Shown here piece after piece: positions 4,213 through 13,775 of a stretch of 64,000 bases of DNA. A program made the position numbers and the translations under genes. Source of the stretch: Duganella sacchari (GTDB lineage Bacteria; Pseudomonadota; Gammaproteobacteria; Burkholderiales; Burkholderiaceae_D); contig NZ_FRCX01000006.1 in assembly GCF_900143065.1 (NCBI RefSeq), positions 310,001 to 374,000 of the forward strand, read 5' to 3'. The notes under the pieces are model-generated. The model made no database searches. It worked only from the letters and a program-made list of their open reading frames with translations, and was not told the origin of the DNA. Position 1 is the first letter of the stretch. Each line of letters begins with the position of its first letter.

Positions 4213-4392
4213 AGCGACAATTTTTTCGGGCGCCAATATTGCGGCGGGAATTATCTCATAGTTTTCCACAAGGAAATTGTCATGGTGTTGATTTTCCCCA
4301 GGCTTTTTTCAGCTGGGCGGCTTCAAGTAGTTCATTGTGTTTTGGTATTTAGTTGAACTACCATAGATTTTTTCACCCCCTTGAGAGATGCC

Positions 4393-5925
4393 ATGAAATC
4401 CAAGCTTGCCGTACTGATGTTGCTGGCCATAAGCTCAGCAGCATTTTCCCAGGATGCCGACAAGGCGCCCGCCGTCAGCAAAGAACGCGCCGCCGAACTG
4501 CAAGCTTCCGAGCGCCTGCTCAAGGCGGATGCGCAAGTCAGCAAGACGGGCCAGGTGACGATCAAGGGCAAGCTGGTGCCGTACAAGGTGACGGCGGGCA
4601 CGCAGCCGGTGTGGGACAAGGATGGCAAGGTGACGGCGTCGCTGTTCTATACCTACTACCAGCGTACGGATGTCAGCGACAAGGGCAAGCGTCCGCTGGT
4701 GCTGTCGTTTAATGGCGGCCCGGGTTCGGCGTCGGTGTGGATGCACGTTGCCTACACCGGTCCCAAGGTGTTGAATCTGGATGCGGAAGGTTATCCGGTG
4801 CAGCCGTATGGCGTCAAGGACAACCCGCATTCGATACTCGACGTCGCCGATATTGTGTATATCGATCCGGTCAACACCGGCTTCTCGCGCGTGCTGGATG
4901 GGAAGGCTGACCGTTCGCGCTTCTTTGGCGTGAATGCGGACATTCAGTATCTGGCTGAGTGGGTGAGCACTTTTGTGTCCCGCGAAGGCCGCTGGACCTC
5001 GCCGAAATACCTGATCGGCGAAAGCTACGGCACCTCGCGCGTGTCCGGTCTGGCGCTGGAACTGCAAAACGCGCAGTGGATGTATCTGAATGGCGTGGTG
5101 CTGGTGTCGCCGACGGAGCTGGGCCTGAAACGCGACGGCGCGGTGGATGATGCGTTGAAGCTGCCGTATTACGCCGCCACCGCGTGGTACCAGAAAGTGC
5201 TGCCAGCCGACCTGCAAGCGAAGGATCTGAAGGACGTGCTGCCGGAAGTGGAAGCCTTCACCACCGATGAATTCCTGCCGGCGCTGGCCAAGGGCGGTTT
5301 CCTCGATGCGCAGAAGCGTGCGCAGATTGCTGCCAAGGTCGCACGCTATTCCGGCCTGTCGGCGGAATACGTTTTGCAGAATAACCTGGCGGTGCAACCG
5401 CAGCAGTTCTGGAAAGAGCTGCTGCGCAAGCAGGGCAAGACCGTGGGCCGCCTGGACTCGCGCTACCTGGGCATCGACAAGACTGATTCGGGCGACAAGG
5501 TCGATTACAACGCCGAGCTGACCTCGTGGCTGCACTCGTTCACGCCGGCCATCAACCAGTACCTGCGCGTGGACCTGGGCTACAAGACCGACGTCAAATA
5601 CAATCTGTTCGGCGACGTCCATCCGTGGGATTACAAGAACGAGAATACGGGCGAGAACCTGCGTCTGGCCATGGCTGCCAATCCGTATCTGAAAGTGATG
5701 ATCCAGTCGGGCTACTACGATGGTGCCTGCACCTACTTCGACGCCAAGTACACCATGTGGCATCTGGACCCGAGCGGCAAGATGAAAGACCGCCTGCGTT
5801 TTGAAGGCTACCGCAGCGGCCACATGATGTATCTGCGTTCGGCCGACCTGGCGACCGCGAATGACGACCTGCGCGACTTCATCCGCTCCGCCACGCCAGC
5901 ACAGAACGCACCAGCCAGGTATTGA
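4393..5925 (+). CDS. Exported S10 serine carboxypeptidase
   Basis: Secreted or periplasmic serine carboxypeptidase that removes C-terminal residues from peptides. MKSKLAVLMLLAISSAAFSQ is a clear signal peptide, so the ATG at 4393 is preferred over a TTG four codons upstream. Family motifs are present in order: LSFNGGPGSASVWMH (oxyanion), GESYGTSR with the catalytic Ser, the Asp region MIQSGYYDGACTYFDA, and SGHMMYLR with the catalytic His near the C-terminus. The length of 510 residues fits bacterial S10 enzymes. It stands alone; the next gene converges from the other strand one base after its stop. Confidence 0.9.
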   Translation: MKSKLAVLMLLAISSAAFSQDADKAPAVSKERAAELQASERLLKADAQVSKTGQVTIKGKLVPYKVTAGTQPVWDKDGKVTASLFYTYYQRTDVSDKGKRPLVLSFNGGPGSASVWMHVAYTGPKVLNLDAEGYPVQPYGVKDNPHSILDVADIVYIDPVNTGFSRVLDGKADRSRFFGVNADIQYLAEWVSTFVSREGRWTSPKYLIGESYGTSRVSGLALELQNAQWMYLNGVVLVSPTELGLKRDGAVDDALKLPYYAATAWYQKVLPADLQAKDLKDVLPEVEAFTTDEFLPALAKGGFLDAQKRAQIAAKVARYSGLSAEYVLQNNLAVQPQQFWKELLRKQGKTVGRLDSRYLGIDKTDSGDKVDYNAELTSWLHSFTPAINQYLRVDLGYKTDVKYNLFGDVHPWDYKNENTGENLRLAMAANPYLKVMIQSGYYDGACTYFDAKYTMWHLDPSGKMKDRLRFEGYRSGHMMYLRSADLATANDDLRDFIRSATPAQNAPARY

Positions 5926-5926
5926 T

Positions 5927-7729
5927 TCAGCTGGCCGTGCGCTGTAGCTGGCGCACGAAGGATTCCGGCGGCATGAAGCCGATCACGCGCGCCTGCAGCA
6001 CTTCCTTGCCGCGGGCGTCGAACAGGATGATGCCGGGTGGGCCGAACAGCTGGAAGCGCTTCATGAGCGCCTTGTCGTCGGCGTTGTTGGCGCTGACGTC
6101 TGCCTGGATCAGCTGCATGTCCTGCATGGCGGCGGCAACGCGGCGTTCGGAGAAAGTCATGCGCTCCATCTCTTTGCAGGCCACGCACCAGTCGGCGTAG
6201 AAGTCGAGCATGACCGGCTTGCTGGTAGACGCCAATACCTTGTCCAGATCCGCCACGGTGCGGATGCGGCTGAAGCGCGGGCCTTCGCGTGCGGCGGTCT
6301 GTTCGCCAGCCACTGCGCTGCCGCCGCGCAGATGCGCCAGCGGTTGCAGCACGTCGGTGCCGGAACTGGCGGCGCCCACCAGTTCAAACAAACCGCCCAG
6401 CAGCATCACCACGCCGATTGCCTTGGCGGCATAGGCGCCAAGGCCCGCTCCGTGCGGCAGCGCTTCGCCTGTGCGCAGGAAGGCCGCGCACAGGATGGCA
6501 AACGCGCCCCACAACGCCATGCTGGCAGTCACCGGCAGGACAGGGCCGATCATCCAGATTGCTACCGCGATCAGCAGCAGGCCGAAGACCTTCTTGACGC
6601 TGTTCATCCAGGCGCCGGCGCGGGGCAGCAGGCTGCCTGCCGACAGGCCGGTCAGCAGCAGCGGTACGCTCATGCCGGTGGCCATCGAGAACAGCGCCCA
6701 GCCGCCCGTGGCGGCGTTGCCGGTCTGGCTGATGTAGAGCAGGGCGCCGGCCAGCGGACCGGCAACGCAAGGACCGACAATCAGCGCGGACAGTGCACCC
6801 ATGATGAAGACGCCGATGATTTTGCCGCCGCTCTGGCGGCCGCTGGATGCGGTCAGCCTGCTTTGCAGCGCGCTCGGGAGCTGGAGCTGGTAGACGTCGA
6901 ACATCGACAGGGCCAGCGCGAACAGCAGCGCGCCGAAGGTCAGCAGCACCCAGGGCTTTTGCAGCGCGCCAGCCAGGCCTTCACCTGCAAGCCCGGCGCC
7001 GACGCCGAGTGCGGTGTAGACCAGCGCCATGCCCAGGCTGTAGGCGCTGGCCAGCAGCAGGCCGCGTTTGCGCGTGACGTTACCTTCGCCGACGATGATG
7101 GAGGACAGGATGGGAACCATGGGCAGCACGCATGGCGTGAACGACAGCAGCAGGCCAAACACCAGGAAGGCGCCACCGATGCGCCAGGCGCTGCCGCTTT
7201 GCAGTGTGCGCTGGGCGAGGGAGGTATCGTCTTCGGCGGCAGGCGGGGCCGCCTTAGCTGTAGCCGTCGCCGGCCCCACGCTCGCTGCGGCATCCGCTAC
7301 CTTTGCGCTCAGCGCACCGGGGGCGGCGGGGGTCACGCTATAGGTCACCACGACCGGCGGGTAGCACAGGCCCGCATCCGCACATCCCTGATAGCTGACA
7401 GTCAGATCGAACGGCGCGGTGCCGCTGACCGGCAGGTTGAGGTCCAGCGCCGCGTAGTAGGTTTCCATCTCCTTGCCAAAATTCTCATCGAACTTGCGCT
7501 GCCCCGCAGGCAGCTGCGGTTGCGCCACGCCTGGTCCGCTGAAGGACAGACGCTCACGATACAGGTGATAACCGTCGGGCATTGTCCAATGCAGGCCGAC
7601 GGTGTGTGCATCGCGCAGCTCGGCCTTGAGCACGAACGCCTGTTCCGGTGGCAGGAAATCATCCGCGAACGCGGCTGGCAACCACGCGGCAAGCAGCAGC
7701 GCGCACAGCCAGTTGAAAACATACTTCAT
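5927..7729 (-). CDS. dsbD: DsbD, thiol:disulfide interchange protein
   Basis: Moves electrons from cytoplasmic thioredoxin across the inner membrane to periplasmic thiol proteins. A signal peptide (about 1-22) precedes the periplasmic alpha domain with its redox Cys pair (CADAGLC, about 115-122). The eight-helix beta domain follows with FTPCVLPMVP and GPCVAGPLAG, each carrying one membrane Cys. The C-terminal thioredoxin-like gamma domain has DWCVACKEM near residue 513. All six redox cysteines are visible. It is the last gene of the tlpA-DUF4266-DUF3570-apbE-dsbD run and overlaps apbE by 4 bp. It could therefore reduce the TlpA-like protein encoded at the head of the run. Confidence 0.95.
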   Translation of the reverse strand: MKYVFNWLCALLLAAWLPAAFADDFLPPEQAFVLKAELRDAHTVGLHWTMPDGYHLYRERLSFSGPGVAQPQLPAGQRKFDENFGKEMETYYAALDLNLPVSGTAPFDLTVSYQGCADAGLCYPPVVVTYSVTPAAPGALSAKVADAAASVGPATATAKAAPPAAEDDTSLAQRTLQSGSAWRIGGAFLVFGLLLSFTPCVLPMVPILSSIIVGEGNVTRKRGLLLASAYSLGMALVYTALGVGAGLAGEGLAGALQKPWVLLTFGALLFALALSMFDVYQLQLPSALQSRLTASSGRQSGGKIIGVFIMGALSALIVGPCVAGPLAGALLYISQTGNAATGGWALFSMATGMSVPLLLTGLSAGSLLPRAGAWMNSVKKVFGLLLIAVAIWMIGPVLPVTASMALWGAFAILCAAFLRTGEALPHGAGLGAYAAKAIGVVMLLGGLFELVGAASSGTDVLQPLAHLRGGSAVAGEQTAAREGPRFSRIRTVADLDKVLASTSKPVMLDFYADWCVACKEMERMTFSERRVAAAMQDMQLIQADVSANNADDKALMKRFQLFGPPGIILFDARGKEVLQARVIGFMPPESFVRQLQRTAS

Positions 7730-8622
7730 GGGGTTCTCCGAAAAATACGGCCATCGTGATCGATGGCCAGGTAACTCAAGCCGGAACGGTCGAGGAAATC
7801 GCGTCCGTCTTCTTCCAGCAGCATGGCCGTGGTGGTGCAGCTGCCTGCGGTGATCGCCAGCGGCGCCAGTACACTGACCGAGCGCCAGTAAGACACTGGC
7901 ATGCCGCTGCGCGGATCAAGCACATGGCAATAGCGCCGGCCATCCACTTCAATAAAGCGTTCGTAATCGCCGCTGGTCGCCAGCGCGCCACGGCTGATGG
8001 GAATGCTGGCCACCGTGGCCGATATATCGCGCGGGTCCTGGATGCCGATATCCCAGGCTGCGCCGTCAGGACGCGGGCCGAGGAAGCGCATGTCGCCACC
8101 CAGGTTGACATAGCCATGCCTGACACCCATGACCGCCAGCACTTCTGCCGCGCGGTCGACGGCGTACTCCTTGCCGAAGCCGCCGAAGTCCAGTTCCATG
8201 CCCGGCAATGGCAGGAATACGGATGCGCCGTTGTGCAGGACCTTGTCCCAGCCGACCAGCGGCAGCAGGTCGCGTAATGCGCTGGTCTGCGGCAGGACCG
8301 CATTGCGGAAATCCCAGGCTTTGCGCAGTACGCCGGAGGTGATGTCGAACCGGCCATCGCTGGTGGCGTGCAGGCGGTCGGCATAAGCCAGCAGCGCTGC
8401 CGTCTCCTCGTCGCAGGCGACGGCATGCTTGCCGGCTGCCGCGTTGATGCGGCTGACTACACTGTCATCGCGATAGCGCGAATACTTTTGCTCGATACGG
8501 CGCACTTCATCGATGGCGTGCATGGCGATGTGACGCGCCGCATCGCCATCGGGGGCGGCGATGCGGACTTCGCAGCGGCTGCCCATGGCGGCAAAGGAGA
8601 CAGTGTAGAGGTCCGCTACCAT
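7726..8622 (-). CDS. apbE: ApbE, FAD:protein FMN transferase
   Basis: Attaches FMN covalently to Ser/Thr of exported flavoproteins, using FAD and Mg2+. The motifs AMGSRCEVRI, the flavin site ELDFGGFGKEYAVDRA, VNLGGDMRFLG, YCHVLDPRSGMPV and a C-terminal SCTTTAMLLEEDG (metal/flavin binding) occur in the normal order. ATG at 8622 is chosen because it overlaps the DUF3570 stop by 7 bp; the resulting 298 residues match ApbE length. No lipobox or clear signal peptide is seen. No protein with the usual flavinylation motif (D-G-A-T/S-x-x-T/S) was noticed nearby, so its substrate is not obvious. Confidence 0.93.
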   Translation of the reverse strand: MVADLYTVSFAAMGSRCEVRIAAPDGDAARHIAMHAIDEVRRIEQKYSRYRDDSVVSRINAAAGKHAVACDEETAALLAYADRLHATSDGRFDITSGVLRKAWDFRNAVLPQTSALRDLLPLVGWDKVLHNGASVFLPLPGMELDFGGFGKEYAVDRAAEVLAVMGVRHGYVNLGGDMRFLGPRPDGAAWDIGIQDPRDISATVASIPISRGALATSGDYERFIEVDGRRYCHVLDPRSGMPVSYWRSVSVLAPLAITAGSCTTTAMLLEEDGRDFLDRSGLSYLAIDHDGRIFRRTP

Positions 8623-9746
8623 AGCCGGGTAAAGCCGATCTGCAGGCTGGTGGCGCGCAACGGCGCCAGTCCTGGACTGCCATCGCCAAACACGCGCCAT
8701 GCGCCGCGCTGCTCGTAGCGTTCCAGCTTCAGATCGACATTCCAGTCCTTGCCGAGCTGTTTGGCGATCTTGATGCCGGCCGTGGCTGCGCCGAACGCAG
8801 ACAGACGCTGGTCAGCTGAAGTGTAAGCCGGGCCGCCGAACACGTAGCCCGGCGGGAAAGGCGCGCCCAGATTGACGTCATACACCGGATCGAAATAGAA
8901 GTCGGCGGCGCGCTGCGAATACAGGCGCAGGGATGGCGTGACGGTCCAGCCATCGGCCAGCGACTGCACCCACTCTGCTGACAGCGTATGCGCGCGGATG
9001 CCGTAGCTGTCGCGGTAGTAGCGGTAGCTGAAACGTCCGGTCGCATCGGCGTCCACGAAGCGATGGTTCCACTGCATCAGCAGCGTGTCCTGGTTGCGGT
9101 CACGCGGGCGGTTGTCAACCAGTTTGTAGGGATCGGAATAGTAGCCATGGCCGCTGCTGTGGGTGTAGGTGAGCTGGCCGATATCCACCGGCGTGAATAC
9201 GCGCGTCACACCCGCCAGCACGCTCACGGTCTGGCGGCTCTCGTTGGTGACGATCAGGTTGACGGGATTGATGCCGTCGTCGGAACCGCCCAGGCCCAGT
9301 GCCCACGTGGTGTTCTTGTCGTCGCTGTCGATGGTGGTTTGCAGCGACAGTGCGCGCGAGCGGTAGTCATGCTCGGTGGAGAACGCGGCGCCGAAGCTGA
9401 CTGTGCCATGCGGCAGATAGCGGGTGACGGTGACATCGCCGGCCTTGCGCAGGTCATCCATGCGCGAGGCGCCGGAAACAGCGGTGTGATAGCGCGGCGA
9501 GGCGCCGGAGACATCGTCCATGGTGACGCTGGCGGCGATCGACCATTCGCCCGCGACTGGCGCCATGATGGCGACCGATGGCGCGTGCACGCGGATGCGG
9601 TCAAGTCCCGGCTGATCCTCTTTGTAGTCCAGATATTTGACGCTGATGGCGCCGCGTTCGGGCGCCGTCTCGGCGTGGACCAGGCCTGGCAGCAGCATGG
9701 CTGCGGCCAGCAGCGCCTGACCCACTGGTGGTTTGTGGTTATCCAT
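8616..9746 (-). CDS. DUF3570 outer-membrane beta-barrel protein
   Basis: A 376-residue exported protein with a signal peptide ending AMLLPGLVHA. The rest is an alternating amphipathic pattern of beta-strands with aromatic ends and terminates in FTRLW, an outer-membrane insertion signature. The motifs SVKYLDYKEDQPGLDRIRV near the N-terminus and VSGASPRYHT are typical of the DUF3570 family as I remember it. DUF3570, DUF4266, TlpA-like and ApbE genes are often found together in proteobacteria. Its function is unknown; a channel or surface scaffold for a redox protein is an inference. It starts with a good ribosome-binding site (AAGGAA), 11 bp after the DUF4266 gene. Confidence 0.88.
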   Translation of the reverse strand: MDNHKPPVGQALLAAAMLLPGLVHAETAPERGAISVKYLDYKEDQPGLDRIRVHAPSVAIMAPVAGEWSIAASVTMDDVSGASPRYHTAVSGASRMDDLRKAGDVTVTRYLPHGTVSFGAAFSTEHDYRSRALSLQTTIDSDDKNTTWALGLGGSDDGINPVNLIVTNESRQTVSVLAGVTRVFTPVDIGQLTYTHSSGHGYYSDPYKLVDNRPRDRNQDTLLMQWNHRFVDADATGRFSYRYYRDSYGIRAHTLSAEWVQSLADGWTVTPSLRLYSQRAADFYFDPVYDVNLGAPFPPGYVFGGPAYTSADQRLSAFGAATAGIKIAKQLGKDWNVDLKLERYEQRGAWRVFGDGSPGLAPLRATSLQIGFTRLW

Positions 9747-9757
9747 GGTGTTCCTTG

Positions 9758-9973
9758 TCAGTTGCAGCCGCAGCCGCCGCCACCGACGCCGCTGCCGCCG
9801 GAAGCCGCTTCCTTGCTGGCGTAGATGTGTTCATTGAAGCGGGTACCGAGGGCGTCGCCCTGTATCAGCATGTCGGGACGCGCCAGGTGGCCTTTTTCCC
9901 AGGCTTGCACGGGCGGCAGCGCGCAGCCGGACAGTGCGGCTGCCATGGCGCAAAGCGCGATCAGTGTTTTCAT
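9758..9973 (-). CDS. DUF4266 small lipoprotein with Cys-Gly tail
   Basis: 71 residues. A lipoprotein signal ends in LSGC, giving a lipidated Cys at about residue 17. A short conserved body follows (WEKGHLARPDMLIQGDALGTRFNEHIYASKEAA), and then a glycine-rich tail GGSGVGGGGCGCN with two cysteines at the extreme C-terminus. Family assignment to DUF4266 is by recall of this body and tail. It overlaps the stop of the tlpA-like gene by 4 bp. The two tail cysteines make it a plausible redox, metal-binding or modification target of the neighbouring thioredoxin or ApbE enzymes, but this is unproven. Confidence 0.85.
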   Translation of the reverse strand: MKTLIALCAMAAALSGCALPPVQAWEKGHLARPDMLIQGDALGTRFNEHIYASKEAASGGSGVGGGGCGCN

Positions 9974-10458
9974 TTGAGGCCTCCCAGTGCGGTTTTGATG
10001 CGGCTTTCCAGTGCGTCGCGGTCGGCGGCGCGGAAGCCGCTGTGCTCATACAGCACTTTGCCGTCCGGACCGACCAAGACGCTGCTTGGCATGCCTTTGA
10101 TGCCGTAGCTGCGCGGCGTGGCGCCGTTCGGATCGAAGGCGATGGCAAAGCGGGCCGGCATGGCGGCGAGGAAGTTGCGGGCATCCTCGGATTTGGCGTC
10201 CACGTTGACGCCGACGATTTGCAGGCCTTGGGCGCCATAGCGCGCCTGCATCTCGTTCATCCAGGGGAAGGATTGACGGCACGGGCCGCACCATGAGGCC
10301 CAGAAGTCGACATACACCAGTTTGCCCTTGTACTGCTCCAGCTTGACCGCGCCATCCGGCCCGTTCAGAGTGAAGGCTGGCGCCGTGGCGCCCGGTTCCA
10401 GTGCCAGGGCGGAGGCGGACAGGCCGCACAGGAGGTAGGCGGCGATGATTTTTTTCAT
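9970..10458 (-). CDS. TlpA/ResA-like periplasmic thioredoxin
   Basis: 162 residues with an N-terminal signal peptide (MKKIIAAYLLCGLSASALA) and a thioredoxin fold. The active site FWASWCGPCRQSFPWM lies at about 42-57, the cis-Pro loop reads KGMPSSVLV, and PGATAPAFTLNGPDG resembles the AhpC/TSA-like TlpA start. It is likely a periplasmic thiol reductant for cytochrome maturation, copper handling or the adjacent DUF4266 Cys pair. First gene of the leftward operon that ends with dsbD, its probable electron donor. The start codon lies 33 bp from the -10-like box at 10491-10496. Confidence 0.92.
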   Translation of the reverse strand: MKKIIAAYLLCGLSASALALEPGATAPAFTLNGPDGAVKLEQYKGKLVYVDFWASWCGPCRQSFPWMNEMQARYGAQGLQIVGVNVDAKSEDARNFLAAMPARFAIAFDPNGATPRSYGIKGMPSSVLVGPDGKVLYEHSGFRAADRDALESRIKTALGGLK

Positions 10459-10490
10459 TGTTGCTCCAGTGGCTGATTGTTGCAGCAGTC

Positions 10491-10517
10491 AATACCCGCG
10501 CAAGCCAGGATGGTTCA
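10491..10517 (-). promoter_or_regulatory. Candidate ECF-sigma promoter of the tlpA-DUF4266-DUF3570-apbE-dsbD operon
   Basis: On the minus strand TGAACC (10517-10512), a 15-bp spacer, then GGTATT (10496-10491) followed by GAC. The same boxes with the same 15-bp spacing precede the sigma-factor gene on the opposite strand. Neither resembles a sigma-70 promoter. Confidence 0.6.
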
Positions 10518-10549
10518 CAATGGACTGGAGAAAATTTTTGTGTTTGGAT

Positions 10550-10576
10550 TGAACCTTTCTTCCTTCGCTGCGTATT
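10550..10576 (+). promoter_or_regulatory. Candidate ECF-sigma promoter of the sigma/anti-sigma/protease operon
   Basis: TGAACC (10550-10555), a 15-bp spacer, then CGTATT (10571-10576) followed by CAC. It lies 22 bp upstream of the sigma-factor start. Matching box sequence and spacing to the divergent promoter suggest autoregulation and co-regulation by the encoded sigma factor. Confidence 0.6.
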
Positions 10577-10598
10577 CACGGCACCAGAGGAGAAATGC

Positions 10599-11174
10599 AT
10601 GCGGACAGGCAGGGGAATGACGGCGTCGGACGAAACGGATGAGGGAGCTTTGCTGCGGCGGGTGTGCGGCGGGGACAGGCTCGCCTTTCAGACCCTGTAT
10701 CGCGCCTATTTTTCCCGGCTGGCGCGGTTTTTGGACCGCATGACGCGCAATGTGCCGCTGGTGGAAGAGATCATCAACGATACCATGCTGGTGGTCTGGC
10801 AGAAGGCAAATACCTTTGATGGCAGTTGCAAGCTGTCGACCTGGATTTTCGCCATCGCCTACCGGCAGGCGCTGAAGGCGCTGCGCGGCCTCGACGTGCC
10901 GCTGGAGCCGCAGGAGGATCAGCCGGGTGAAGCCGGCGCGGAGCCGGAACATGCGCTGGCCGCGCGCCAGTTGCAGCGTGGCGTCAGCCGGGCGCTGGAC
11001 AGGTTGCCGATGGAGCAGCGCCTGGTGGTCAGTCTGACCTATTACCATGGCATGGCCTATCAGGAAATCGCTGAGACCATGGGATGCCCGGTGAACACGG
11101 TGAAAACCCGGATGTTCCATGCACGGCAAAAGTTGAAGGACATGCTGTCCGATCATATGGAAGAGATGCAATGA
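10599..11174 (+). CDS. ECF-family RNA polymerase sigma factor
   Basis: 191 residues with the two sigma regions of ECF factors. Region 2 includes AFQTLYRAYFSRLARFLDRM and VEEIINDTMLVVWQKANTFDG. Region 4 includes LPMEQRLVVSLTYYHGMAYQEIAETMGCPVNTVKTRMFHARQ, an HTH for the -35 box, split here across residues 140-182. ATG at 10599 is preferred because an AGAGGAGA ribosome site lies just upstream; ATG at 10617 is an alternative. It overlaps the anti-sigma gene by 4 bp. The divergent promoter pattern suggests it reads both operons. The triggering signal is unknown. Confidence 0.92.
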   Translation: MRTGRGMTASDETDEGALLRRVCGGDRLAFQTLYRAYFSRLARFLDRMTRNVPLVEEIINDTMLVVWQKANTFDGSCKLSTWIFAIAYRQALKALRGLDVPLEPQEDQPGEAGAEPEHALAARQLQRGVSRALDRLPMEQRLVVSLTYYHGMAYQEIAETMGCPVNTVKTRMFHARQKLKDMLSDHMEEMQ

Positions 11175-11827
11175 GTACCCACACCACCACCAGCGACGCG
11201 GAACACCAGGCCTTGCAGGATTTGCTGCCCTGGTATGCCTCGGGATCGCTGAGCGAGGAGGAGGCGGGCCGCGTGCAGGAGCATCTGCACAGCTGCACCG
11301 CCTGCCGCGAGGATCTGGCCTGGCAGCGCAAGCTGCTGGAGACGGAAGGGCCGCTGCCGTCGGGACTGGACCCGGAGCGGGCACTGGCGCGCCTGATGCT
11401 GCAGCTGGATGCGGCGCCGGCACAGGCTGCATTGGCCGCATCAGCACGGGCCAGCTTCGGCAACCGTCTGCGCGCCTGGCTGGGCAACGCCGGCTGGCAA
11501 GGCTGGGCGCTCGCCGCGCAACTGGCCGTGATTGCGGTGCTGGCCGCGCAGCTGCTGCCGCATGGCGAAGCGCCAGGTTACCAGGCACTTGGCCGCGGAC
11601 CAGCTTCCACGCCAGACGTGCTGGTGGTCTTCAAACCGGACGCACGTTTGCAGGACGTACAGCGTATCTTGCAAGCCAACGGCGCCCAGATCATCGGCGG
11701 TCCGACAGTCACGGGCGCTTACATGCTGGATGTGGACTCGGACCATCAGGCGCAGCTACTGTCGGCACTGCGCGCTGACCCGTCGGTGGAACTGGCCGAA
11801 TCGCTGACTGCCGCGAGCCAGCCATGA
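11171..11827 (+). CDS. Zinc-finger anti-sigma factor with a subtilase-propeptide-like periplasmic domain
   Basis: 218 residues. The N-terminal cytoplasmic anti-sigma domain carries the HX3CX2C motif (EHLHSCTACRED, about 38-48), which binds zinc and holds the sigma factor. One membrane helix (about 116-136, WALAAQLAVIAVLAAQLL) leads to a periplasmic domain (about 148-218). That domain reads VLVVFKPDARLQDVQRIL...GAYMLDVDS...LLSALRADPSVELAES, the beta-alpha-beta pattern of subtilisin propeptide/inhibitor I9-type domains. A similar block occurs in the pro-region of the protease encoded directly after it. Start ATG overlaps the sigma stop, and its stop overlaps the protease start, so all three are translationally coupled. 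Inference: the protease and this domain interact in signal control. Confidence 0.85.
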   Translation: MSTHTTTSDAEHQALQDLLPWYASGSLSEEEAGRVQEHLHSCTACREDLAWQRKLLETEGPLPSGLDPERALARLMLQLDAAPAQAALAASARASFGNRLRAWLGNAGWQGWALAAQLAVIAVLAAQLLPHGEAPGYQALGRGPASTPDVLVVFKPDARLQDVQRILQANGAQIIGGPTVTGAYMLDVDSDHQAQLLSALRADPSVELAESLTAASQP

Positions 11828-13101
11828 AACGCCTGCTGGCATTGGCATTTTGCCTGTGCTCTGGCGCCGTGATGGCACAGGCAGGCCAGGACTTGCCGCA
11901 GATCGTGCCGCGCATCGATGCGCCTGCGGAAACGCAGCAAGCACCGGGCAATGCCGAAATCCTCGTCATGTTCCATTTGCCGGCGCCGCATTTCCGCGCT
12001 GACCACTATGGCAGCAACAACTACCGCGAAGATGCCGGCCGCGCCGCGCGCCAGCGGATAGCCGCCGCAGTGGCGCAGGACTACAAGCTGGAGCTGATGG
12101 AAGACTGGGCCATGCCCGCGCTGAACGTCGATTGCTACCGCATGCGTTTGCCCGCAGGGCAGGGCGCGGCCACCCTGCTGGATGTCTTGTCGCGCGACAG
12201 CCGCGTGGAATGGGCGCAGGTGATACAGGACTTCGTGGCGCAAGCGGGCAGCGATCCGTTATACCGCACCCAGCCCGCTGCTGGCGCATGGCATCTCGAT
12301 GAAGTGCGCAAGGCCGCGACTGGCCGCAAGGTCACGGTTGCTGTGGTGGATAGCGGCATCGAGAGCAACCACCCCGACCTGGCCGGCCAGGTGACGGTGG
12401 AAGAAAATTTTGTCGATGGCCAGAAGTATGTGCCGGAGCTGCATGGCACGGCGGTTGCAGGCGTCATCGCCGCGCGCGCCGGCAATGGCGTCGGCATTGA
12501 AGGCGTGGCGCCGGATGCGCGCTTGATGGCATTGCGCGCCTGCTGGCAAAGCGGTAGCGCCACGCGCTGCAACAGCTTCACGCTGGCCAAGGCCATGAAC
12601 TATGCGCTGTCGAATGGCGCGCAAGTCATCAACCTGAGTTTGTCCGGCCCGCAGGACAGGCTGCTATTGCAATTGGTTGAAGCAGCGCAGGCACGCGGCA
12701 TACGGGTGGTGGGGGCGGTCGATCCGGCGCGCGCCGACGGCGGCTTCCCTGCCAATACGCCTGGCGTGTTTGCCGTGGCCTCGGACGGCGCCGCGCCGCA
12801 CGCCGGCCTGCATCCACTGCTGGCGCCAGGACGCGATATCCCCACCACGCTGCCCGGCGGACGCTGGGGCGTGGTCAGTGGATCGTCATATGCGGCGGCC
12901 CATGTATCCGGTATGCTGGCGTTGCTCGATGAACTGAAACCGCAGCTCTCCGCTGCCCGGCTGCGGGAAGGAATCGTGCCCGGCGACGCCAGCGCGGTTT
13001 TGACCGGCATTGATCTCTGTGCCACCATCCTCCGACTCACAGGAAAATGTACATGCGCTTGTCCTACCAGCTCCAACAGCCGATTCGTCCGCTCGCCCTG
13101 A
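11824..13101 (+). CDS. Exported subtilisin-like serine protease (S8)
   Basis: 425 residues with signal peptide MKRLLALAFCLCSGAVMAQ, a pro-region (about 45-140, EILVMFHLP...LLDVLSRDSRVEWAQV) and an S8 catalytic domain. Catalytic residues are visible as Asp176 (VAVVDSGIE), His207 (ELHGTAVAGVIAA) and Ser355 (SGSSYAAAHVSGM). The oxyanion Asn is in VINLSLSG-like context. The C-terminus is short and ends in an unusual Cys-rich tail (GKCTCACPTSS) because the frame runs 49 bp into the next gene. Coupled to the anti-sigma gene by a 4-bp overlap. It is likely a periplasmic or surface protease that acts on, or is held by, the anti-sigma factor's outer domain (inference). Confidence 0.9.
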   Translation: MKRLLALAFCLCSGAVMAQAGQDLPQIVPRIDAPAETQQAPGNAEILVMFHLPAPHFRADHYGSNNYREDAGRAARQRIAAAVAQDYKLELMEDWAMPALNVDCYRMRLPAGQGAATLLDVLSRDSRVEWAQVIQDFVAQAGSDPLYRTQPAAGAWHLDEVRKAATGRKVTVAVVDSGIESNHPDLAGQVTVEENFVDGQKYVPELHGTAVAGVIAARAGNGVGIEGVAPDARLMALRACWQSGSATRCNSFTLAKAMNYALSNGAQVINLSLSGPQDRLLLQLVEAAQARGIRVVGAVDPARADGGFPANTPGVFAVASDGAAPHAGLHPLLAPGRDIPTTLPGGRWGVVSGSSYAAAHVSGMLALLDELKPQLSAARLREGIVPGDASAVLTGIDLCATILRLTGKCTCACPTSSNSRFVRSP

Positions 13102-13775
13102 GCGTGCTGGCCTGGTTGCTGGCGCCCGCCGCGCATGCGCAGTTAAGCGGCAGTGCAGGCCTGCTGTCCAATTACATGTATCGCGGCGTCACACTCAGCG
13201 ATGACCGGCCGGCTGCGCGCCTGGCGCTGAACTACGATGGCGCGTCTGGCTGGTTTGCCGGCGGACAGGTGGTGACGGGGCAGCTGGCGGTGGAATCGCA
13301 CCGTAGCGCGCAGTGGACTGGCTATGCTGGCTATGCACAACGCCTGCCGTCCGGACTGGCGTGGGAAACGGGTCTCACCGCCTATGCTTTTCCAAACAAG
13401 CCGCACTGGAATTTCCAGGAAGTGTTCTTTGGGCTGTCAGGCGACACCGTGAGCGGGCGCCTGCACTACTCGCCCAATTACCTGGGCTTTGGCGATCACA
13501 CCTTTTACGGCGAATTGAATGGCGGCTGGCCGCTGGCGCCGCGCTTGCAGGCGTTCTGGCATGGCGGCTATTACTACGCCCGCGATAACGCGCGCACCAA
13601 TCGCGCCGAATCGCGCATTGGCCTGGCTACCTCGTACAAGGACTGGCAGGCGCAGTTGTCGCTCGACCTCACGCGCCAGCGCGGCGGGAGCACCACCGAT
13701 ATCTATGGCAGCAACAACCGCGGCGACAGTGATGTCCGCCATAAGGTGGTCATCACTGTCGCCCGGATTTTCTGA
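13053..13775 (+). CDS. TorF-like putative outer-membrane porin
   Basis: 240 residues with signal peptide (ending LLAPAAHA). An opening QLSGSAGLLSNYMYRGVTLSDDRPA, the hallmark of the TorF (TIGR02001) family, is followed by paired beta-strands and a terminal ITVARIF. The ATG at 13053 has an AGGA ribosome site 8 bp upstream; ATG at 13047 is too close to it. The gene overlaps the 3' end of the protease gene by 49 bp in another frame. It closes the sigma-factor operon, giving that operon an outer-membrane component as the divergent operon has with DUF3570. Confidence 0.82.
   Translation: MRLSYQLQQPIRPLALSVLAWLLAPAAHAQLSGSAGLLSNYMYRGVTLSDDRPAARLALNYDGASGWFAGGQVVTGQLAVESHRSAQWTGYAGYAQRLPSGLAWETGLTAYAFPNKPHWNFQEVFFGLSGDTVSGRLHYSPNYLGFGDHTFYGELNGGWPLAPRLQAFWHGGYYYARDNARTNRAESRIGLATSYKDWQAQLSLDLTRQRGGSTTDIYGSNNRGDSDVRHKVVITVARIF

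Follow-up and report, generated by a model that had tools for sequence, protein, structure and literature searches.

We analyzed a 64,000-nucleotide stretch of the Duganella sacchari genome (contig NZ_FRCX01000006.1, positions 310,001 to 374,000; hereafter the window), specifically focusing on two divergent operons, one headed by a gene for an extracytoplasmic function (ECF) sigma factor and the other encoding a DUF3570 flavinylation system. It is highly probable that the ECF sigma factor reads a two-box promoter that drives its own operon as well as the divergent redox operon, in which tlpA would, in the simplest reading, have moved up to the promoter by a deletion; judged by sequence comparison, both operons are very likely regulated by this sigma factor. 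It would recognize GAACC as the −35 box and nATnnAC as the −10 box, 17 bases apart. One copy of this promoter would drive the sigma factor's own operon (sigma factor, anti-sigma factor, subtilisin and porin), and a second copy on the opposite strand would drive a flavin/thiol electron-transfer operon (TlpA, DUF4266, DUF3570, ApbE and DsbD).

An earlier note on this DNA had described the pattern TGAACC-N15-(C/G)GTATT before both operons within a 140-bp gap, and the letters bear this out with exact positions: The minus-strand site (10517-10491) reads TGAACCATCCTGGCTTGCGCGGGTATT, the plus-strand site (10550-10576) reads TGAACCTTTCTTCCTTCGCTGCGTATT, and the distance from the tlpA start (10458) to the in-frame ATG of the ECF gene (10599) is 140 bp. 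As read from the letters of the window, the leaders following both promoters are short and contain a ribosome-binding-like sequence. The exact pattern occurs in the window at these two sites only; when up to one mismatch is permitted, three matches are obtained as compared to 0.22 on average in 100 shuffles, all of which stayed below three. While both window sites thus match exactly, the (C/G)GTATT part of the described pattern is not strictly kept in relatives: The minus promoter reads GCTATT in close relatives, and at greater distance the −10 box varies further, so that (C/G)GTATT was rejected as an essential −10 box. The core that is conserved across relatives is GAACC-N17-nAT-NN-AC.

A search with the ECF protein yielded 71 loci, here numbered with the prefix L, of which the 20 closest (L031-L050) are titled Duganella, Pseudoduganella, Janthinobacterium, Massilia, Undibacterium or Oxalobacteraceae. 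The divergent layout, for which the earlier note had suggested a search together with the motif, is found in all of them, with ECF, anti-sigma factor, S8 peptidase and Gcw genes on one side and TlpA, DUF4266, DUF3570, ApbE and DsbD genes on the other. L051 shows the ECF side alone within the stretch read, and L052-L061 contain ECF, anti-sigma factor and S8 genes. In an upstream alignment of the window with L031-L051, GAACC and the −10 boxes are kept and the spacer has diverged. Among the loci with the divergent, linked layout, the 300 bases before the ECF gene contain the core in 24 of 25, and the mrtJ/tlpA promoter has it in 25 of 25, mrtJ being the gene that stands behind this promoter in relatives. 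The earlier note had named as a finding against its proposal that relatives retaining both operons might have lost the motif; this did not occur.

The second line of comparison is a set of 74 genomes of the genus (prefix G), in which each genome enters each count once unless stated. The two samples are not independent because 12 of the 20 loci L031-L050 come from the same genomes as 12 of the genus set, as recognized by 300 identical bases of the ECF gene. We called a genome ECF-positive when its ECF protein match had an E-value of at most 1e-40, a line set by ourselves. By this measure the ECF sigma factor is present in 53 of the 74 genomes, MrtJ exceeds its cut-off in 40 and DUF3570 occurs in 48, and all 40 MrtJ genomes lie within the 53 ECF-positive and within the 48 DUF3570-positive ones. 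MrtJ over cut-off is accordingly distributed as 40 of 53 ECF-positive vs 0 of 21 ECF-negative genomes (Fisher p 6e-10, uncorrected for phylogeny). In 16 genomes mrtJ adjoins the ECF gene, and in 24 it stands elsewhere, in one of these on a 3.3-kb contig.

Retention of the motif in these separated operons offers a clean comparative argument for an Oxalobacteraceae regulon. In all 24 genomes with an unlinked operon, the core in the form GAACC-N17-(T/A/G)AT-NN-AC precedes mrtJ, and in the same 24 genomes it also precedes the ECF gene; one scan missed L163 on the mrtJ side (23/24), where the site is nearer to the gene than the cut, and the other scan shows it. When any base is allowed at the first −10 position, the core lies at most 300 bases before the ECF gene at 37 of 37 loci in which mrtJ is not adjacent; these loci represent 36 genomes (G020 occurs twice), 12 of which have no MrtJ over the cut-off. 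At DUF3570 loci not tied to this ECF sigma factor, neither form of the core was found in any of nine cases (7-13 kb read each), five of which stem from ECF-free genomes and four are second copies in ECF-carrying genomes. Together with the counts at the linked loci, these results support the earlier note in its proposal of a sigma factor that governs both its own and the redox/flavin operon. L232 shows no core because its contig ends inside the JDVT gene, which places the promoter region off the contig. The motif also stays with dsbD genes that have moved alone: Close dsbD orthologues (at least 68% identity over most of the protein) adjoin the redox operon except in G021, G037 and G055, in the last of which just a dsbD contig was seen. 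In G021 and G037, the two genomes covered here, the motif stands 77-78 bases before the start of the isolated dsbD gene.

In the whole source genome (6.68 Mb) the originally described pattern has three exact matches, the third of which (G000:C35) falls within the reading frame of a DEAD-box helicase-like protein and was taken as chance. At up to one mismatch there are 32 matches vs 15 for the reversed pattern, and this pattern alone is therefore moderately specific. The genome-wide scan suggested in the earlier note was repeated with the refined motif TGAACC-N16-(G/C)TATTNAC, which adds the NAC that relatives keep after the −10 box: It has exactly two matches, which are the two reported sites. 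Across the 74 genus genomes this motif (TGAACC-N16-STATTNAC) yields 38 matches, all within 22 ECF-positive genomes, as compared to four for the reversed control. Thirty-three of the 38 precede the ECF gene or mrtJ (tlpA in the source genome), three precede a tlpA-DUF4266 operon that begins with a DUF4214 gene, one stands before the isolated dsbD of G021, and one lies within a long reading frame (G037:C9:62626) and was taken as chance. The wider motif TWGAACC-N16-GNATNNACSG has 87 matches (reversed control: 9 in the 74 genomes), 78 of which, by position, precede an ECF, mrtJ, dsbD or TIGR03118 gene. The core itself occurs 77 times in 71 stretches chosen around these genes (909,364 bases) vs twice for its reversed form, and by arithmetic about 0.001 match per 300 bases is expected by chance.

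Several observations weigh against a regulon of this sigma factor. The core was not found in the 300 bases before the ECF gene at any of the ten loci examined from outside the Oxalobacteraceae (L052-L061; L062-L101 were left out), the linked ECF promoter of L036 has GAACT, and five DUF3570 operons occur in genomes without this ECF sigma factor. Many unlinked sites score just 8 or 9 out of 11 by the window consensus TGAACC/GTATT, values attained also in 265 of 680 shuffled upstream regions of 250 bases. Because shuffles score this high so often, single unlinked sites are unconvincing by consensus score, which we did not accept as proof for unlinked promoters, and what carries the argument is the core that the sites have in common, its placement and the genome-wide contrasts. 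The information content of the boxes was not used, as the columns are fixed by the search expression. Moreover, the wider patterns were written after promoters had already been seen; therefore, the dsbD genes and the contrast to ECF-negative genomes outweigh the counts at known promoters. Within that contrast, G055 was counted as ECF-negative, is 60% complete and holds a dsbD that is 78% identical, and its sigma gene may therefore be merely unsequenced.

A last adverse observation are seven wider-motif matches in ECF-positive genomes that lie off the known operons, four of them preceding a similar PEP-CTERM gene. They also speak for a different regulator: The boxes might be read by another sigma factor or constitute a paired activator site, with the ECF gene being just one of its targets. 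We consider this improbable, because motif and ECF gene co-occur, with 85 wider-motif matches in the 53 ECF-positive genomes vs 2 in the 21 ECF-negative ones, and because the spacing and the AAC-type −35 box of the sites fit ECF promoters. That the likeness of the two sites is due to chance or to a duplicated intergenic stretch without function is hardly credible: The two sites do stand alone in the source genome, and at one mismatch the original pattern outnumbers its reversed form only by a factor of about two, but the boxes are kept between diverging spacers, relatives retain both promoters, also once the operons have separated, and chance resemblance is rejected on shuffles, genome-wide counts and conservation. 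The co-occurrence of motif and sigma gene thus points to this ECF sigma factor as the probable reader of the motif, which provides a testable regulator for the DUF3570 flavinylation system.

Table 1. Promoters and genes of the two divergent operons in the window.
Feature	Position	Strand	Remarks
ECF-operon promoter	10550..10579	+	−35 TGAACC 10550-10555, −10 GTATT 10572-10576, then CAC up to 10579
ECF sigma factor	10599..11174	+	191 aa from ATG 10599; frame permits earlier starts
Anti-sigma factor	11171..11827	+	zf-HC2 (ZAS) domain, Pfam over cut-off
S8 (subtilisin-like) peptidase	11824..13101	+	Pfam; signal-peptide-like start
Gcw_chp / TorF-family putative porin	13047..13775	+	Pfam/HMM
Redox-operon promoter	10488..10517	−	−35 TGAACC 10517-10512, −10 GTATT 10495-10491, then GAC up to 10488
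TlpA-like thioredoxin-fold protein (CGPC)	9970..10458	−	PF08534 and PF00578 over cut-off
DUF4266 small protein	9758..9973	−	Pfam; C-terminal end CGCN (CXC)
DUF3570 protein	8616..9746	−	Pfam; SGAS motifs at residues 80 and 91
ApbE flavin transferase	7726..8700	−	Pfam
DsbD transmembrane thiol reductase	5927..7729	−	Pfam

The gene names given in the earlier note for both operons hold by Pfam (Table 1); the sigma factor matches Sigma70_r2 and Sigma70_r4 over the cut-off and TIGR02937 with 91.1 bits (cut-off 42.9). What distinguishes the window from its relatives is the head of the redox operon. In the 20 relatives L031-L050, about 2.5 kb lie between the minus promoter and tlpA, and tblastn detects homologues of mrtJ and of a JDVT-CTERM protein in this interval at 20 of 20 loci. 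In L031 and L047 these reach 79.3 and 88.5 bits with the NCBIfam MrtJ equivalog (cut-off 75) and 53.8 and 53.7 bits with the JDVT-CTERM domain (cut-off 27), and their JDVT-CTERM proteins contain repeated choice-of-anchor-D domains as well as a c-type cytochrome domain match below the cut-off. The source genome has no MrtJ over the cut-off (best match 50.2 bits vs 75), the L031 MrtJ protein finds no match in it in a search run without a positive control, and all eight matches of the L031 fusion protein described below lie within its TlpA part (query residues 693-873). The bases directly behind the minus promoter of the source genome still resemble those of relatives and then run into tlpA. Most simply, mrtJ and the JDVT-CTERM gene would have been lost by a deletion that set tlpA behind the promoter. 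Only three of the 74 genus genomes have ECF and DUF3570 without MrtJ over the cut-off: the source genome, G021 and G037, the latter two with the two operons on separate contigs.

In the relatives, the TlpA frame is open upstream through the JDVT-CTERM motif (GGGGC, a hydrophobic stretch and arginines) at 15 of 20 loci (L031-L045) as well as in L167 and L232. Overall, an in-frame JDVT-TlpA fusion is found at 17 of 61 loci with a TlpA match, and the other 44, including the window, fail the test; L163 has no TlpA match in it. As a result of the fusion to TlpA, the JDVT-CTERM sorting signal is internal. The arginines and the next hydrophobic stretch would act as the signal peptide of TlpA, and one chain could therefore yield two exported products. 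MrtJ and JDVT-CTERM are described in PMC11980579 as a two-gene sorting module. The relatives agree with that description in pairing an MrtJ equivalog with a JDVT-CTERM protein, both over the cut-off, and differ from it in three respects: The pair heads a longer redox operon under an ECF-type promoter, the JDVT-CTERM signal is internal and fused to TlpA at 17 loci, and both genes are absent from the source genome. The DUF3570 flavinylation system is thereby tied to a myxosortase-type sorting module.

For the DUF3570 protein of the window, a structural model (mean pLDDT 81.9, pTM 0.81) contains 16 long strands. Against the PDB it matches 399 chains at an E-value of at most 0.001, and the 50 best of these 399 are outer-membrane barrels (FadL, BcsC, CymA, OmpG and others) with query TM-scores of 0.39-0.57. 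As modeled, DUF3570 is a 16-stranded outer-membrane barrel with two flavinylation motifs: The SGAS motifs are located where the third strand ends and in the loop that connects it to the fourth, and residues 85-93 are modeled below 50. In outer-membrane barrels, long outer loops usually alternate with short inner turns; the motif loop would be on the outer side of the barrel.

In PMC8238504, the DsbD-type flavinylation cluster consists of ApbE, DUF3570, a thioredoxin-like protein (PF13899), DUF4266 and DsbD, the flavinylated DUF3570 family carries two [S/T]GA[S/T] motifs, and the function of the system is called uncertain. The window has the same gene set, the two [S/T]GA[S/T] motifs of DUF3570 and the C-terminal CXC of DUF4266. 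It differs from the cluster as described there in its separate thioredoxin-like protein, which is TlpA-like and not PF13899 (in the window, PF13899 is matched by the C-terminus of DsbD and not by the separate TlpA-like protein), and in the ECF-type promoter, behind which relatives have mrtJ and the JDVT-CTERM gene as the first genes of the operon. In the main text of PMC8238504 the terms 'sigma', 'ECF', 'JDVT', 'CAAX' and 'myxosortase' each occur 0 times, and in the section examined of PMC11334425 (2024, on flavinylated folds), DUF3570 is not treated. A search of a library of open papers returned none joining ApbE, ECF sigma and flavin.

The second distinctive element is the anti-sigma factor, whose frame overlaps that of the sigma factor at 11171-11174. 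Its HxxxCxxC motif (H38, C42, C45) is invariant in 30 aligned sequences, and a hydrophobic, putatively membrane-spanning helix comprises residues 109-128. Residues 150-211 are modeled as a beta-alpha-beta-beta-alpha-beta domain with a confidence of at least 90 in each block of ten. Directly downstream of the anti-sigma gene, on the same strand, follows an S8 gene at 66 of 66 loci examined. In 20 aligned S8 sequences the triad D176/H207/S355 is invariant, as are C104, C240 and C249, and these three cysteines might confer redox sensitivity on the protease. The N-terminus of S8 gives weak matches below the cut-off to Pfam prodomains in two of five sequences; that of the window protein has no Pfam prodomain match. 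The sequences suggest that the C-terminus of the anti-sigma factor is a subtilisin-prodomain-like domain, which, with its gene beside that of a subtilisin, would make up a protease-gated switch. We infer that subtilisin and anti-sigma factor form a sensing pair, for which cutting, holding and competing are all possible modes.

The rival explanation for this sensing step is that the terminal domain of the anti-sigma factor is an ordinary ferredoxin-like domain, e.g. an ACT-like one, and that the neighboring protease is a mere target gene. We regard this as doubtful, though by no means remote. When isolated, the C-terminal domain is recognized by the fervidolysin prodomain profile (PF22148) in 23 of 25 homologues at an E-value of at most 1 (best 2.5e-9), and the isolated domain of the window protein scores 21.9 bits against a cut-off of 21; the full-length window protein, however, stays below it with 19.0 bits. 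The first-ranked Foldseek match of the domain is a subtilisin propeptide (1scj_B, E 3.1e-3), but no Foldseek match passes an E-value of 0.001. Nor does structure comparison part prodomains from ACT-like domains: With VIA-align 2, 1scj_B reaches a Z of 7.3, propeptides (about 7) are level with ACT and further ferredoxin-like domains, and SerB2 is higher at 8.2. Because of this tie the fold alone does not decide the identity of the domain and was not accepted as proof of a prodomain. A profile search of the domain against the PDB gave four matches at an E-value of at most 10, three of them designed repeat proteins, and was left unused. What favors the prodomain-like domain over an ordinary one is the PF22148 match in most homologues, the top rank of a subtilisin propeptide and the invariant neighborhood of the S8 gene.

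In sigma/anti-sigma pairs of the ChrR or RsrA type, an ECF sigma gene overlaps the gene of a ZAS anti-sigma factor with HxxxCxxC, and the promoter is autoregulated. The pair in the window resembles them in the overlapping genes, the HxxxCxxC motif and the promoter before its own operon; it differs in the hydrophobic helix and the subtilisin-prodomain-like C-terminus of its anti-sigma factor and in the subtilisin gene that follows. An autoregulated pair of ECF sigma and anti-sigma factor is of an already known kind, while the present regulon and sensor architecture look new: A signaling architecture with a subtilisin prodomain on an anti-sigma factor is suggested, and our search of a library of open papers found none joining anti-sigma, ECF sigma, subtilisin and propeptide, and none joining extracytoplasmic function, anti-sigma factor and S8 peptidase.

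How the system might work can be sketched from its parts, with an outward flow of electrons and gating by the protease both being plausible. Electrons would pass from DsbD via TlpA/DUF4266 to the flavin on DUF3570 and on to the outside, and a signal would reach the anti-sigma factor via its prodomain-like domain and the neighboring subtilisin. A tentative joint reading, which we think unlikely to hold as a whole, combines a prodomain-bait anti-sigma factor, a flavin/thiol route to a myxosortase-processed surface protein and JDVT-TlpA precursors of two products. Having shed its own prodomain, the secreted subtilisin would bind or cleave the periplasmic prodomain of the anti-sigma factor and so release the sigma factor; the latter would then build a flavin/thiol route that leads through the outer-membrane barrel to the surface protein without multihaem cytochromes, and the fused JDVT-TlpA chain would be a two-product precursor cut by MrtJ and signal peptidase.

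Some further genes accompany these operons. At three loci (L230, L231, L240), mrtJ and the JDVT-CTERM gene are replaced, behind the same promoter, by the gene of a lipoprotein that is DUF4214-like and contains CVGCH; the DUF4214 identity was assigned by Pfam on L230 alone, and the DUF4214-headed tlpA-DUF4266 operon continues into DUF3570 in G021 and G037. A promoter-like site of close similarity stands before the gene of a similar PEP-CTERM protein at L241-L244 (G002, G007, G013 and G034), where the PEP-CTERM family was verified for the gene of G034. An extra promoter core follows the Gcw gene at 9 of the 23 loci L168-L190 (L168, L169, L175, L176, L177, L182, L184, L186 and L188), with the sequence downstream of it read in five of the nine: A similar lipoprotein gene stands behind it in L168, L169, L184 and L186, identified as TIGR03118 by HMM in L168 and L184, and in L177 the lipoprotein gene after it looks truncated. 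On the other flank most of the other stretches end short of where the corresponding gene would stand; beyond dsbD, the window has a serine carboxypeptidase (S10) gene at 4381-5925, which adjoins dsbD also in L034 and L040.

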